A stretch of DNA of 64,000 bases, from the NCBI RefSeq assembly GCF_036785885.1, contig NC_092312.1, positions 12,480,001 through 12,544,000 on the forward strand. The letters are read 5' to 3'. The DNA is from Coffea arabica. Lineage: Eukaryota > Streptophyta > Magnoliopsida > Gentianales > Rubiaceae. The position numbers were made by a program, and so were the translations under genes. Below the pieces are notes generated by a model, which was not told the origin of the DNA, searched no databases, and worked only from the letters and a program-made list of their open reading frames with translations. Shown piece after piece: positions 3,056-22,628 of the stretch. Each line of letters opens with the position of its first letter. Position 1 is the first letter of the stretch.

Positions 3056-4192
3056 TTATATCATGCTACTTGCAATATATTCGTCTAAACAGGCTGGTTT
3101 CTTGAGCATTTCGGTGGCAGCTTCGCCAAAAACTTCCTCTTCCCCTTCAAAAGCATTTTTTGCTATCGATTCAACGTCTTCATCATCATTCAATGCACCC
3201 CATGTTATCGCAAAAATGGAGACCCCCTTCATCACACACCCTGTTGATGGAAGCCTGACCACTTTCGCATACCACAACTTTAGTTTCGGATCACTTTTAT
3301 TGCCAGCCATATTTGTTCCACTCCTCAACTCAGCAAGCTTTGCCGTCCCCAAAACAGCCTTCCCTTGTTTCATTCGATCTGTAATTACGATGCTTTGAAT
3401 CCGAGCAGGTAAGACAGGAGCAAATGTTCCGAACATTGTCAACATCGACCGAGCATCTTCTGAGACCTCCTCCAAAATGCACATCTCTTTCTCCATTTCT
3501 CGCCGGGCCAACACTACTACTTTTTGATCATTTTCCTCCTCTTCATTATGACAGACAGCAGGGCCTAAAGAGGCAGCGCTCCTTGCATGAAACAATATGA
3601 AGCCTCCAGAATTCTCAGGCTTGCTTTCTGCTTTCCACTTGAATATGGGCCCTGTTGGAAATTTGGGACTGTCTAGACCACCTTCAGTTATTAAGCTTGA
3701 AGGAGTTTTCAACATCTTACGCGACCCCGAGAATTCAACTTCCACATAGAGAAATTCGAGGGACCTGAATTTCATTATGAACCTGACCAATTGCAGAAGC
3801 AAGGTTATGCTTTTATCAGAAGAAGAGGAGGAGGGACGAGACTTTTGGGAGAGCCCGCTTAGGAAACGAAAGGGATTTACTCTCTTGAGGGAATGGAGGA
3901 GTTTCCTGGGCATGGATAGAGACTGAAATGTGGCGGTGGAAGTGGGTGCATGAGAAGGAACCCCGCCAGGGATGCCAAAAATAGTGCAAGAAATGGTCTG
4001 GGATTGAAGAACCAGGCAGGCAAAGCGTTTTGAGAGCAAATAGCAGCTGAAGAGGGTTTTGGCTTCAGGGATCTTGCCAAGTATATGGGATACTATCAGT
4101 TCATCTGGTAACCGATTGAAGTGATTTTGTTCTTCTTCTCCTTGAGGAATTTCTTTTGTAATCACAACGATTTCATTTTCATAAGTCGCCAT
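3056..4192 (-). CDS. F-box protein, AUF-like family (copy 1, intact)
   Basis: A single uninterrupted exon of 378 codons. The start at 4190-4192 (MATYENEIVV) was chosen over an in-frame ATG 39 codons upstream because all paralogues begin shortly before the F-box and a TATA box lies about 90 bases upstream of it. The F-box is near residues 27-70 (FNRLPDELIVSHILGKI, EAKTLFSCYLLSKRFACLV). It is followed by a Ser-rich insert (SRPSSSSSDKS), the family segment LEFLYVEVEFSGS, and the C-terminal block IQSIVITDRMKQGKAVLG, LPSTGCVMKGVSIFAITWG, KNAFEGEEEVFGEAATEML. F-box proteins of this plant group (AUF1/AUF2 and relatives) are expected to bind SKP1 and select targets for SCF ubiquitin ligases; the target here is unknown. 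It is the most divergent of the intact copies and is closest to the pseudogene at 5257-5870. Confidence 0.85.
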   Translation of the reverse strand: MATYENEIVVITKEIPQGEEEQNHFNRLPDELIVSHILGKIPEAKTLFSCYLLSKRFACLVLQSQTISCTIFGIPGGVPSHAPTSTATFQSLSMPRKLLHSLKRVNPFRFLSGLSQKSRPSSSSSDKSITLLLQLVRFIMKFRSLEFLYVEVEFSGSRKMLKTPSSLITEGGLDSPKFPTGPIFKWKAESKPENSGGFILFHARSAASLGPAVCHNEEEENDQKVVVLARREMEKEMCILEEVSEDARSMLTMFGTFAPVLPARIQSIVITDRMKQGKAVLGTAKLAELRSGTNMAGNKSDPKLKLWYAKVVRLPSTGCVMKGVSIFAITWGALNDDEDVESIAKNAFEGEEEVFGEAATEMLKKPACLDEYIASSMI

Positions 4193-4277
4193 TTCCTGTA
4201 ACTCTCTCAATTCAATTTTCTGAATAGGGAACTGAATTCTGAATTTTCTTGAGGTGGGATGAGGGTAAGAAAATCTC

Positions 4278-4285
4278 TTTATATA
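4278..4285 (-). promoter_or_regulatory. TATA box of F-box copy 1
   Basis: TATATAAA on the minus strand, about 86 bases upstream of the chosen ATG at 4192, a normal distance for a plant core promoter with a short leader. It supports the downstream start codon, since the longer reading frame would begin almost at the TATA box itself. Confidence 0.6.
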
Positions 4286-4309
4286 GGACCACTTCTCCTT
4301 GCCACCCAA

Positions 4310-5256
4310 GAATAAGGCATTTACCCCTTGGAAGATGCAATTTACAGGTGTCAGAACCAGCTACAAGGGAACCATGCAATTAGGTGTGATGCAAGTAGGA
4401 CAAGCGGCATATTCTTATTGTGCAACTAGCAGAGGATGCAAAGGTAGTCGCTGTGATTTATCTATTGGCATCATCATGAGATGCTCTCACGAAAACGAAA
4501 TTGGTATTTCTCGGCAAGAAAAGAATTTCCAGGCACGTGTTCTAAATTGACAGAAATACTACCAAAATATTTACCTATTAGAGACATACAATACAGTTTA
4601 TTTGGGCAAGTTTTTCCATTTTTTTTTAATCCTTTTTCGTTTGAAATTAGTTGAGTAGTTGTAGGACCTAATGCAGAGTCTTGATTCCAATTCATCTCCA
4701 TGCATTTGAAATTTGTATACCACATGAAATAGAAACTAAAAGGCAAATTCTGACTTTCTGATACACATTTTCTGAGTGCAGTGTAATTATGCATCTTATA
4801 GAATATGGGAACGATAAGTTCATTATTAACCATGTTTATACGTTCGTATACAGTATGTATACTTGGCTATTAAATTTGTTAACCAATTGATAAATGCTCA
4901 GTTGTTTGGAGTCCTATTCCTGAATTTATCATTACCATTTTTGAACTCCACTTCCACTGATGCAGGGGGAGCAAGAGTATGATGATGTTTGACTCGTAGC
5001 TGAGTTTTGTAAAAGATCTGCTTTTTTTCTGAAAATATAGAGGAGCAAGGAGCACAAGTTTTTCTCATTGGAAACAGCAACATGGCCATCTTAATTTAGA
5101 GAAAATTGACAAAGCTTACATGCCATGCCATGAAGGTAGATGAAAGAAAAACAGAAATCAAGCGAATGTAGGCAGCTGATAGGCTGTATATGAACAATTC
5201 CAGATCAGTCTCAGAATCTAACAACTAGTATCAACTTCAGATTGATCCAATCATTA
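4310..5256. other. Spacer between F-box copies
   Basis: Promoter-side DNA of F-box copy 1 followed by AT-rich sequence. No gene or readable transposon end was recognised. Confidence 0.45.
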
Positions 5257-16285: not shown

Positions 16286-16752
16286 TTCTCACAGAAGTTG
16301 AGTCTCAACGCTCAGATTACTGAAGCAGAGAACTGTTCTAGCAGTATTTAACAACTGATTTTTGGAATGGGGGAGAAGCTAAATGATGACAGTGGCCAGA
16401 AGCCAGATGAAGTTCGCTTTCTCTGTTTCTTGTGGGTCCTCGTGCCCGAGGTGTATCGTGTAGTATTAAGCCACAGACCACTCCCGGTCACGCCGACAGA
16501 AGAGAAGAAGGGAAGAGGTATTTGTCAAATCCGGGAAAATTAGATCGTTCTCAATTATATAATTGATTTAGAAAGGTCTGAGATTTACTGCCGTTAAATA
16601 CTAGGATCATGGTGGGATCAGCGATGACCGGTTACATACATCCTATCCTAATCAACATATCTAGTCTATGCGGGAATGGGGAGCTTTTCAATCGAGTTCT
16701 GATTGCTGACGTGGCGAGCTTCCATTGGCCGATTGGTGGTCGTCTGCCTCGT

Positions 16753-16786
16753 GTGAATTCGCTCGCGTGAATTCGCTCGCGTGAAT
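16753..16786. repeat. Short tandem repeat near the Helitron 5' end
   Basis: GTGAATTCGCTCGC occurs twice in tandem followed by a third partial GTGAATT, about 95 bases inside the element. It may mark replication slippage or a subterminal binding site of the element. Confidence 0.6.
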
Positions 16787-17395
16787 TTGGTCCGTCCAGC
16801 CGATTGTTTCTTTCTTTTCTTTGTTTGCTTGGATGTCTACATTGGAGCCTGCCGCAAAATTGTGGTCCCACGTCCTTTGGTTTTTTTTCCCTTTTTTTTT
16901 TAAAAATTGGATGGAAGTGCTTGTTAATAACCTTTTTTTGGATGCTACAGCCCCTCTCATTCCCTTGTTGGTTTAGAATTATCCCGGCAGAATTATCCAA
17001 TAATTCCCTTATTGAATTGGAATTATCCCTCTTTTTAAACTATCTAATTAGCATTTTCCCCAATTGTTAGCTAAAGAATGCCTTTTGTGGTTCCTCAAAA
17101 AAACGCACATAATTATCAAATTCTTTCCAATTAATTGTTCGTTAACTGATTAATAAACTCGATTTTTACTTATTACGTAACGAATCGCATTTAGCTATCC
17201 CCCTCTTACAATTATTGACATATTTGGACTTTCCAACTAAATCGCAATTACTTATCGATTTCTTGTAATTGCCTTATATTAATTATTGGCACATGCTTTT
17301 TTTTTTTAGAATGAGAGGGGGTTTATTTGGAATCGATTTTACGTAAACAATCAACAATGTGGTGCGCTTCCGTTGGTGTCATTTATTGTTTGTCC

Positions 17396-17968
17396 ACGCC
17401 GCGCACCGCATTTGATTATCGATTCTCCGTTGTTAATTTTTATAACTATTTATTTATCTCTTTTTATTTGGATTCCCTTTTTTTAACCAATAAATCACGT
17501 TTAATTACCAATTATTTATTCTTAATTGTTAATGACTTATTAATGATGCCATTTTTTCCCTTTCTCAACAATAGATTGTGTTGCCAAAAAACTTGATATC
17601 CCGGTTCTTTACAATTATTACTACTTTCCCTTTGTTTCCAGATAAATTGCACTTATTAATAATTACTTTTTTTTTGCAATAATTGCTTATATATTATCTT
17701 TTTTTGCAATAATTGCTTATATATTATCTTTTTTTAAAATTGCTTTTGTTATCCTTCAATTGTGAAAATTTTACACTTCAATTGATTTTACCTGGTCACG
17801 CCACACACCATGCTTAATTATTGATTCCCGACTATTAATTGTTATAATTATTTGCTTACCTATTTTTATTTGTGTTCTTTTTTTTGTTAGCAAACAAATC
17901 ATATTTGATTACCAACTTTTTAGAATACATTGTTAATAACTGATAAATAATACCATTTTTTTTTATCG
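17396..17968. repeat. Diverged direct repeats inside the Helitron
   Basis: A block of about 165 bases (CACGCCGCGCACCGCATTTG at 17396) recurs diverged at about 17797 (CACGCCACACACCATGCTTA) with the same order of A/T-rich words. Between them is an exact 30-bp tandem duplication at 17671-17700 and 17701-17730 (TTTTTGCAATAATTGCTTAT plus 10 more bases). The interior has grown by duplication of non-coding sequence. Confidence 0.65.
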
Positions 17969-19650
17969 CCATTTTTTGTTACCCAACAACTGGCATTTAA
18001 TTCATAACTTTTTTGCAATTATTAGCAACATTTCTTTTCTTGTCAGAGATATCACATTTAATTTCCTTTTTTCCAAATTTCATTAAGAAAATGTCCTCTT
18101 TTGTTTTGGGTTGCCCAACAAATGGACTTTAATTATCAGTTTTTTTCAATTACTCTTTTATTAATTCGGTTCTGATTTGGCAGTTTTATTGCTACAAAAA
18201 TCACATTTAATTGCTGGCCTTTTTTAGTATTAATACTTTTTGTTACCCACAAAAATCGCATTTAATTACCAATTCTATGTAGTTATTAGCCAAGAAATAT
18301 GCTTGTCTTATTCTTTTCTTTCGTTACTTTTCCTGTCGTAACCAAACTCCTTATTGCTAATCTGATTGACTCATTTTTACAAACAAGCCTGCATCTTGTT
18401 TGTTTAGTTCTAGAGCAAGCTTTCTCGAGTTCCTCATCAGTCACTACTTGTCACCAGCCTGTTTCTGCCGACAAGTGACTGTACTTGACCTGATTAATTG
18501 CTACCTTAATTTTCTATATTACCCATCCCTTGTGACTATATTTACGATTCCACTCCATGGACCTTGTCGCCTTTTGTCCTTTACTTGAGGTTATGTTTGT
18601 AAATCTATAAACAACCGTCATTTTTCGCCATTGTCTACCATCAGCTTCCTTTTGCTGCGGTTGATTGACACTGTTTGGTGTTTTGCATTTGCACAATGGA
18701 TACAGAGTTTCTCTGGTTTTCCGCGGCGGATTTTCTACTGAGCATCATCATGAACAATGGTAATTGTGCACCCGCTGCATTCTTTTCTCTATTCTAAAAC
18801 TCTTGTTTCTTTGTTAGCCAGAGGGAACTACCTCATACCGATTGTTCTTCGTTTTCTTTGGCTGTTTTGAACCTTCATTTTCCCTAATTTATCAGTTTGG
18901 TTTTAATTTGCACTGGTGCTGTCGTTTTTGCTTTCCTGGTGAGCATGTTGGTTTTATAGTTCGGCTTAATTTGTTGTTCTTTAACTGTTTATATATTTCA
19001 AAGATTGCTATCAGGCTGCTTTGCTTTTTATTTCTTCCTTGCTTCTCGGCTTTCTAATGCACTGGTTCAACTATTTTTTCCCTTTTTTTGTCTGCCCCTT
19101 CTAAATTATTATCACCGAATTAGCTTCTATTTTTCTCTCCCATTTTTTTCACCTTTTCTTATGACCTCTTACATGATTGCCATTTCTTTGATAGTTTCTG
19201 CTGCTATTCACTTCTGCGGTGTTGAGCTTCTTCGTGTTCACAGGTTAGCTCTTCTGATTTTGTTCTCGTTTTACTCTTTTCTCTATATTTTATCCTTAAT
19301 TTATGCATCTTTGGGATACATTTTCTGATGCATCAGCACTTATGGCCTGCTCCAGCTTTTCCTTTTTTTAGTTTGGGACTTTTTGACTTCCTGTATCTTT
19401 TGTGATCCTTATTCTTGCATATACGTGTTATTCTATTGTTTCTGCTGCTATACTTACATGCCTGATTATTTTTTATGTAAGCATTTGTTCTTTGCTCGGC
19501 TGCCGCTATTAACTCCTTCATCTCTTTGTGTTCGCTTGTTTTTTGCCTGCTCTGCTTTCTGCCAGTTTTCGATTTACATTCTTTTTTGCTAAGTTAGACA
19601 TTCCTTTCTTTATATAGTCCTTCGACATTTTTTGCTCTTACTAAAAAACG

Positions 19651-20034
19651 ATGGATGGAAATGCTACTCGCCGCAAAAAATACGCAGAAATGCCATCTTC
19701 GAAAAAAATGCAACTTCTGCAACGCCGGAAAGAAAATAGAGCTGCCAAGAAAAAGAATGCGCATTTACTCCCACGTATTCGTAAGGTTCCACTAGGTTAT
19801 ATGGAATCGGGTGTTTCTTTCCCTGATTCGCATCATGAAACCCTTGATGGTGCGAATCACTCTTCTATACATAGTGAAATCTTAGGAGCCGAGGCCTTGA
19901 AGAGCGGTAATGACAATGCTGCTGTCATTACTGAGGCATTACAATATATGTCCTCTCATGAATCCGCTCCTTTTATTCCTCGCGTCCATTCTGCTCCCTC
20001 TTCTCAGACTGCAAACGACATAGCGGGAATCTGA
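19651..20034 (+). CDS. Helitron-borne basic protein exon, function unknown
   Basis: A 127-codon frame starting MDGNATRRKKYAEMPSSKKM, rich in Lys and Arg at the N-terminus (LLQRRKENRAAKKK) and Ser/His-rich later. It lies inside the Helitron directly before the B3 region and probably belongs to the same transcription unit. After its stop at 20032-20034 another frame stays open from 20028 to about 20150 (LPWTVPLPDLLHMNAIASRG), so either a splice or a frameshift joins the parts. Basic starts of this kind are seen in Helitron-encoded proteins, but no domain is recognised. Moderate confidence that it is coding, low for any role. Confidence 0.5.
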   Translation: MDGNATRRKKYAEMPSSKKMQLLQRRKENRAAKKKNAHLLPRIRKVPLGYMESGVSFPDSHHETLDGANHSSIHSEILGAEALKSGNDNAAVITEALQYMSSHESAPFIPRVHSAPSSQTANDIAGI

Positions 20035-20210
20035 TATTTGATGTTATTCACTTTTGTGAACTACAAAAACAAGTTCTTCTGCCTTGGACCGTCCCCCTAC
20101 CAGATCTATTGCACATGAATGCCATTGCATCAAGAGGTCAAAATACCGCTGTACCTATCTCATATCCTCATCTATATAGTATATTATTTTTAATGTAACA
20201 CAGTCATTTG

Positions 20211-20737
20211 ATGACAGATGATATCCACATGGCCGCTACACACCAGCAAGTTACTTCCTCGCTAAGACCAGATTTCTGTCAAGATCTATCTGATTCAGTG
20301 TGCTTTTATCAAATCTTTAACTCCGCAACTCCAAACAGCTTGGTAAGCTATTCTATGTTTACCTGCATTCTCTTTTTTCATCTCAACTTTCTCGCAAGCA
20401 ATTTCCTTTTGTTTCTGCATATCTTCTAATCTGCACCTTTTGATGATAGAAAATTCCGCGCTTTGTTGATCACTTCATCAATGATATCAAGACTCCCATG
20501 TTACTTATCAACACTGGACAAAAAACTACTCAAATTGCTGTAAAGCATAAACGCCTTCACCGAAACTGGAGAGATTTCGTTCTTCAACATCAATTGCAAC
20601 ACAATGAAACTCTGGTCTTTGTTCCGGAATCTGAAAATATATTTACAGTTTTAATCTTCGATGATACCGGAGTTGAAAATATTTTCCTTGGTATCACATA
20701 TTCAATATTTATTCGGATGCTTAATGAATTTAGCTGA
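20211..20737 (+). CDS. B3 DNA-binding domain coding region inside the Helitron
   Basis: Two exons join in frame at an intron 20343-20449 (GTAAGC..ATAG). The joined reading runs FCQDLSDSVCFYQIFNSATP, NSL|KIPRFVDHFINDI, then HRNWRDFVLQHQLQHNETLV and FTVLIFDDTGVEN, ending at TGA 20735-20737. Order and spacing match the B3 fold of plant REM-type proteins: an N-terminal F-x-x-I/V-F strand, IP-x-x-F, W-x-x-F-V-x-x-x-x-L, LVF, F-x-V-x-I-F-D. B3 domains bind DNA in plant transcription factors. The upstream boundary is uncertain, since the ATG at 20211 may be internal and a stop lies near 20196. It may be a captured host gene or a native part of this Helitron lineage. Confidence 0.65.
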
Positions 20738-20918
20738 ACCGTGCAGTGTAATTTACCTATCGATTGAATACATTACTGGTAGTTTCTACTTCTTCTTAGC
20801 TAAACCAAGCAACCACTACCCCCACGATCAGTGTTAATGCATTGATTCTTCTTTGAATTAACTAATTTTACAAAATTAATTATTCAACTGGGCATTACTG
20901 GGCATCACTGCTTTCACC

Positions 20919-20949
20919 CACCGCGCATAGCGCGGTGATCCCCTCCTAG
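20919..20949 (+). terminator. Helitron 3' hairpin and CTAG terminus
   Basis: Stem CACCGCGC/GCGCGGTG with loop ATA, followed by ATCCCCTC and CTAG, then T outside. This is the signal at which rolling-circle transposition of a Helitron ends. Confidence 0.9.
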
Positions 20950-22088: not shown

Positions 22089-22628
22089 CAATAAAATTCA
22101 TCAAAAATATGTAGGAGATATATTTCATAAAATCAATTTATATGGGGAGGCAATTCATACACATAAGAATATGTGTGGGACAAGAGGAATAATACCAATA
22201 ATAATCTATTAATCACATCATAAGAACAAGACTCTTAATCCTTCACTCTTCTCAATTAAACACAATAATATGACTCCCTATTTAGAGATTAGATGACTTG
22301 ATAATTAAGTCTTACAACCATAAGAAATTTCCTAATAAGATACTAATTCCTAAACAATAAAAAATTCATCAAAAATATGTAGGAGATATATTTCATAAAA
22401 TCAATTTATATGGGGAGGCAATTCATACACATAAGAATATGTGTGGGACAAGAGGAATAATACCAACAATAATCTATTAATCACATCATAAGAACAAGAC
22501 TCCTAATCCTTCACTCTTCTCAATTAAACACAATAATATGACTCCCTATTTAGAGATTAGATGACTTGATAATTAAGTCTTACAACCATAAGAAATTTCC
22601 TAATAAGATACTAATTCCTAAACAATAA
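22089..22628. repeat. 268-bp direct tandem duplication
   Basis: Two head-to-tail copies with a constant period of 268 bp (for example TGACTCCCTATTTAGAGATT at 22271 and 22539). They differ by only about two substitutions (ACCAATAATA/ACCAACAATA and CTCTTAATCC/CTCCTAATCC) and a short A-run, so the duplication is young. No coding content. It may derive from an LTR-like repeat, but no internal retrotransposon region lies between the copies. Confidence 0.9.

Follow-up and report, generated by a model that had tools for sequence, protein, structure and literature searches.

Full-size Helitrons of Coffea arabica with RepHel, an RPA70-like gene and a probably transposon-owned double-B3 gene

Plant Helitrons have so far been described with a RepHel gene and often an RPA-like gene. 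The combination is documented for PHRPA elements and relatives of Mothra in the accessible part of PMC4683698, a paper in which the term "B3 domain" occurs zero times. In the available portion of a wheat paper (PMC13286980) B3 is not named. Further Helitron domains listed in the accessible sections of a review are RPA, OTU protease and AP endonuclease (PMC6431247). Outside the Helitrons, VANC of the VANDAL transposons is an accessory DNA-binding protein that, according to the accessible text of PMC5735166, binds a nine-base motif that occurs at high density and with uniform orientation in non-coding sequence; VANC proteins evolve together with their motif (accessible parts of PMC5735166 and PMC10398659). 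No report of a Helitron-owned B3 gene was found in searches of the open-access literature. The listed open-access papers joining Helitron with "B3 domain" or "reproductive meristem" do so incidentally, as far as their titles and the beginnings of their abstracts go, and among the papers listed for wider searches none connects Helitrons with B3.

We analysed 64,000 nucleotides of Coffea arabica (GCF_036785885.1, NC_092312.1, positions 12,480,001 to 12,544,000, forward strand), in the following called the window, together with related elements of the same genome. The elements share with the plant RepHel and RPA Helitrons the TC...CTRR ends, the 3' hairpin, the A-T insertion and the RPA70-like second gene. 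What sets them apart is a third gene, placed downstream of RPA, which encodes two B3 domains. Full-size Helitrons with RepHel, an RPA70-like gene and a double-B3 gene exist in this genome, the B3 protein very probably belonging to the transposon and acting, as we infer, on its own non-coding DNA. As extra functions added to the Rep-helicase core, the accessory domains of Helentrons (OTU protease, AP endonuclease) are comparable; they are, however, different domains and are assigned to animal and some fungal elements in the sections of the review at hand (PMC6431247).

The window element and its full-size relatives

The Helitron in the window (Table 1) has termini reading TCAACATATC...CTAG between a host A and a host T. 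Its 5' end TCAACATATCTAG directly follows the host A and its 3' CTAG directly precedes the host T, giving 5' TC and 3' CTRR ends and an A-T insertion without target duplication. The GC-rich hairpin, which Helitrons usually carry some 10-12 bp from their 3' end, has arms of 8 bp (20919-20937) and stands 12 bp before the end of the element. The 5' end TCAACATATCTAG and the 3' CTAG are common to other copies sitting at different sites, and some relatives begin with TT, not TC. An earlier note on this DNA had proposed Helitron ends around the B3 segment and no Rep/helicase between them. Both points are borne out, the ends being those of 16652-20949 with hairpin and CTAG, and the Rep and helicase exons being absent in comparison with full copies, RepHel exon 1 excepted. 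In the copies on C15 and C16 (L012, L014), a second Helitron-like 5' end (TTAACATATATAGTC) adjoins the 3' CTAG, similar to tandem Helitron insertions. The host flank in the window shows, by eye, a nearly identical direct duplication of ~270 bp (about 22090-22355 and 22363-22628).

Table 1. Features of the deleted Helitron in the window (positions within the window)
Feature	Position	Strand	Remarks
Helitron, non-autonomous, internally deleted	16652..20949	+	4298 bp; between A (16651) and T (20950)
Degenerate repeat array, consensus AAATCRCATTTAATTACCAA; candidate binding-site array (inferred)	17100..18272	+	10 same-strand matrix matches
RepHel first coding exon (basic segment), cut by deletion	19651..20021	+	aligned with exon 1 in full-size copies
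B3-gene exon 2 remnant: C-terminal part of first B3 domain and linker	20022..20136	+	frame reads SGNLIFDVIHFCELQKQVLLPWTVPLPDLL...
B3-gene intron 2	20137..20217	+	frame joins across; GT in 20/20, AG in 19/20 copies
B3-gene exon 3, first strand of second B3 domain	20218..20342	+	third-position excess in own frame
B3-gene intron 3 (intron of the earlier note)	20343..20449	+	GT in 19/20 (one GC), AG in 20/20 copies
B3-gene exon 4, rest of second B3 domain	20450..20737	+	Pfam B3 21.6 bits
Helitron 3' terminus: hairpin CACCGCGC-ATA-GCGCGGTG, then ATCCCCTCCTAG	20919..20949	+	read directly; in most aligned copies

Full-size copies were found on C20, C15, C16, C12 and C1 of the same genome. Those on C15, C16 and C1, for which both ends could be located, measure about 13.4-13.6 kb; in the C20 copy similarity is lost within the last exon and the 3' end differs. 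The gene order is RepHel, the RPA70-like gene and, ~1 kb further, the double-B3 gene. RepHel, the gene by which autonomous Helitrons are recognised, was confirmed in the C1 copy with Helitron_like_N (PF14214, 184.4 bits) and PIF1 (PF05970, 175 bits) and in the C20 copy with Helitron_like_N (PF14214, 190 bits). The RPA70-like gene matches a solved RPA70 in phmmer (E 4.5e-8). Since the RepHel frames are interrupted in several full-size copies, we claim activity for none of them. On C6, four helicase matches with identical scores (16688149, 16806328, 16865533 and 17008512), each with RPA, have second-B3 matches 13.5 kb downstream; the four loci probably arose by large duplications of a single Helitron region.

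Structure, linkage and conservation of the double-B3 gene

Alignment of 20 copies led to a gene model of four exons and three introns with 263 aa as modelled. Exons 1 and 3 each encode the first strand of one B3 domain, exons 2 and 4 the rest. The splice dinucleotides of donor 1 and acceptor 1 are present in all 20 copies (for introns 2 and 3 see Table 1), and AG directly precedes exon 4 in 25 of 25 loci from many families. Behind the first domain, 19 of these 25 loci have a linker WTx[PH]L; behind the second, a PW[YH] tail stands in frame in 23 of 25 loci other than the window.

The spliced 263 aa protein of the copy at 402 kb on C1 matches Pfam B3 (PF02362) in two stretches with 35.7 bits (E 8e-9), above the gathering cut-off of 30.1. 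Single exons have B3 as their best match in seven of seven cases tested, with 17-23 bits and thus all under the cut-off. The same applies to the window, with 21.6 bits (E 2e-4) for the exon from 20450 and 21.4 bits for the spliced exons. B3 coding sequence within a Helitron, as the earlier note had read it, is therefore real by the full two-domain relative, whereas the window exons themselves remain below the threshold. Searched against solved structures, the profile of the second domain reached the B3 domain of At1g16640 at E 0.0064, with the unrelated beta-2-microglobulin at 0.034; the profile of the first domain reached no solved B3. AlphaFold2 models of single exons are of low confidence (mean pLDDT 63.5 and 61.0). 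With two tandem B3 domains and a full spliced protein passing the Pfam cut-off, the product resembles REM-type B3 proteins (PF02362). It differs from them in being encoded by a transposon, in forming clades separate from the 20 host exons sampled and in its own linker WTxPL and PW[YH] tail.

Judged from its sequence, the window copy of this gene is a broken relic. The first B3 domain is reduced to its C-terminal part, the complete exon 2 being present in copies on C20, C1, C14 and others, and the conserved FPWY tail after the second domain is out of frame. The intron given by the earlier note proved exact (GT...AG). Its argument that the kept B3 frame speaks against decay fails for this broken copy, in which the frame is kept because it was inherited from the full-size element.

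In each genome search the best 150 places were scored, and all counts are lower bounds. The first B3 domain gave at least 150 matches with identities from 100 down to 36%; by hand count, 38 of the 150 listed contain a stop. Likewise, at least 150 matches were obtained for the second B3 domain, and for 121 of the 150 listed a first-B3 match is found no more than 1 kb upstream. Of the 150 listed first-B3 matches, 81 have a same-strand helicase match at a distance of 3.1-6.0 kb upstream, compared with 0 of 150 on the opposite strand and 0.08 on average for random positions, which were drawn over 54 Mb for every contig. RPA occurs 0.5-6 kb upstream of 99 of the 150 listed matches; within 15 kb, 110 have helicase or RPA and 40 have neither. 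Starting from the helicase end (best 150 of 995 candidates), the full order helicase, RPA, B3, B3 was observed for 80 of the best 150 matches. A B3 match within 8 kb accompanies 47 of the 50 helicases most like the query, 40 of the next 50 and 4 of the last 50; 10 of these last 50 have one within 15 kb. Two of the 52 helicase places lacking a B3 match were read, and both (L041, L042) carry a diverged double-B3 gene. The fall in B3 linkage thus reflects the search at least in part. Both loci also show an extra conserved upstream exon (L041 about 3944-4396, L042 about 4226-4573; KNPF.KW ... GEP.LYS ... QWLQ.I) that matches no Pfam family.

In linked pairs, the identities of first B3 and helicase are correlated with rho 0.85 (n 87), and with rho 0.73 (n 71) outside the own subfamily of the window element. 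Joint descent of B3 gene and helicase would give such a correlation, repeated capture would not. Selection was followed by means of a tree built from 19 close copies, from which the C20 and window copies were left out; stops and gaps were set aside. Internal branches carry 62/38/119 changes at codon positions 1/2/3 of the four exons (p 5e-11), terminal branches in contrast 67/75/79 (p 0.6), and the two patterns differ with p 4e-5. Internal changes in introns and 3' region amount to 63/50/57 (p 0.47). The branch pattern is that of a gene apparently needed while the elements multiply and decaying afterwards. Codon models, whose null versions had kappa held close to the estimated value, gave omega 0.50 for the 19 close copies (lnL -2777.8 vs -2797.9 at omega 1). 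Across 25 diverged loci (20 from matches without stop in the first B3, two close copies and three other reads) omega is 0.22 (lnL -6914.8 vs -7170.2 at omega 1); this value, as well as the count of 25 intact genes in 25 loci, is biased towards constraint, because the loci were chosen with an open first-B3 frame.

Repeat array and proposed role

In the non-coding 5' part of the window element, 0.4-1.6 kb from the 5' end, the repeat AAATCRCATTTAATTACCAA recurs in one orientation. Repeat finding gave it as family D1 with 7 copies in the window. A weight matrix trained on these 7 copies finds 10 matches in the window, a count that is circular for this reason, compared with 0.23 in shuffles and 1 on the minus strand. 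Elsewhere, matches were obtained in the C20 copy (8), the C15 copy (7), the C1 subfamily (10) and the related family L084 (7), close copies sharing the array by descent, while the element bodies of C20 and C1 contain 0 same-strand matches. The expectation of a window-type array in every family failed. Outside the own subfamily and L084 the array is not clear in any family examined: the 5' regions of eight other families gave 2 same-strand matches in L085 and 0, 0, 0, 1, 0, 1 and 3 in L086-L092. De novo repeats stand clearly above shuffles in L085 (12 vs 5-7), marginally in L087, L090 and L091, and not in L086, L088, L089 and L092. The repeat of L085 is a different one, TTTGCTTATTCCCTCG, with 12 copies on one strand (L085:500-3940), often spaced by about 141-150 bp.

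If a transposon retains a protein that binds double-stranded DNA sequence-specifically, the likeliest use of this protein is on the element itself. Reading the sequences in this way, the double-B3 protein most likely binds the element's own non-coding DNA. The putative sequence-specific binding to double-stranded DNA would act, for example, on the repeat array upstream of RepHel, and it may maintain transcription of the element's DNA or protect it from silencing, which is the role of VANC in VANDAL, or load replication proteins. The likeness to VANC of the Mutator-like VANDAL elements of Arabidopsis would at most be one of plan, an accessory DNA-binding protein with a dense same-orientation motif. 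It would hold between different transposon superfamilies, and the array occurs in few of the Helitron families examined. If the gene is owned by the element, we put self-directed expression or anti-silencing at about an even chance, a part in the transposition complex at a minor one and host targets at a still smaller one. That a plant B3 transcription-factor gene was captured long ago, duplicated to two domains and made a third core Helitron gene in this species, perhaps even across flowering plants, its protein binding the element's own iteron-like repeats against silencing or for the start of rolling-circle transposition, is a more tentative reading, which we consider somewhat doubtful. If the third gene, kept by selection, does encode a sequence-specific DNA-binding protein, a plant transcription-factor domain would be a working part of a rolling-circle transposon. 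This would offer a direct handle on two open questions, namely how silencing is evaded by plant Helitrons and by what means these recognise their own DNA. Transposon genes may also be among those counted as B3 genes in plant genomes.

Alternatively, the double-B3 protein could belong to the transposition complex and recognise either the Helitron termini or the target site. The gene is kept beside RepHel and RPA in fixed order, and with its two B3 domains the protein could contact two sites on DNA. The matrix matches, however, lie in the 5' part with none near the 3' end, and no terminal repeat matching the internal array was seen. Helitrons of other lineages, as far as is known, move without a double-B3 gene. 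We regard this role as unlikely, though worth keeping in mind. Action on host genes, for instance on development or germ-line expression such that transposition occurs in inherited tissue, appears rather improbable. B3/REM relatives do regulate plant genes (accessible part of PMC6821719), and most families examined show no recognisable shared repeat array; on the other hand, the location of the gene inside the element and its decay following insertion fit a function in the service of transposition.

Origin of the gene and the internal deletion

The host genome contains at least 150 PF02362 places, of which 20 among those listed were sampled; a nearer host gene may exist. In a tree with these 20 host B3 exons, 14 of 14 first and 14 of 14 second Helitron domains each form one clade with bootstrap 100. 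The host exons nearest to the Helitron clades look REM-like (labels by our own reading), with joining supports of 45-63. The best identity of the 28 Helitron B3 domains to the sampled host exons is 22-34%. Recent capture from a sampled host gene was rejected on account of this identity of at most 34% and the separate clades. For the double-B3 protein we propose an ancient origin from a plant B3 (REM-like) gene. Twelve B3-profile matches at C9:5100212-5144394, spaced by 3995-3996 bp and each with one TAG and one TAA, are a tandem array of a 4-kb unit carrying a broken host-type B3 exon.

A fragment of a host B3 (REM) gene, captured and merely carried along as cargo, is strongly disfavoured and in our estimate very improbable. 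Plant Helitrons do capture host gene fragments, as stated in the available sections of PMC6431247, and the host has many B3 genes. Against this stand the one fixed place of the gene in many diverged families, its co-inheritance with the helicase, the conservation of the protein on internal branches only together with the low omega across families, and the distance to the sampled host exons. The two options of the earlier note are thereby separated. A simple recent host capture does not agree with a best identity of 34% to the 20 sampled host exons; a B3 protein of the Helitron lineage's own agrees with linkage, co-inheritance and purifying selection, but not in the form of a basic-B3 fusion.

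The 1087-bp segment 19651-20737, which the earlier note had taken as one arrangement of a basic segment and B3, matched 40 scored places in its own genome. By hand count, 24 of the 40 rows match only from about 366 onward (start 366-370, running to the 3' part), and other rows match 1-371 only, so that the query splits at 366-371. Within single elements, e.g. on C20 and C1, the two parts are ~9.4 kb apart. The deletion junction is a 6-bp microhomology, CGACAT, at 20016-20021. In the profile search the basic segment matched 0 Pfam families. Its frame, opening at 19651, stops at 20032-20034, and hence there is no continuous basic-B3 frame. The arrangement in the window is a deletion product, in which the first RepHel exon became joined to the 3' portion of the separate double-B3 gene. 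A single protein of basic segment and B3 carried by the Helitron lineage, for which both segments in order in the window and two sister copies would speak, is refuted by the full-size copies, where the segments belong to two genes, and by the stop in the joined frame, and can practically be dismissed.

The same deletion junction occurs at two further places, on C7 and C3, with 3' flanks that differ from those of the window. The deleted form has therefore itself moved, presumably in trans, and the window copy would be such a passenger. In the C3 copy with this junction, the second B3 exon contains an insertion of ~600 bp.
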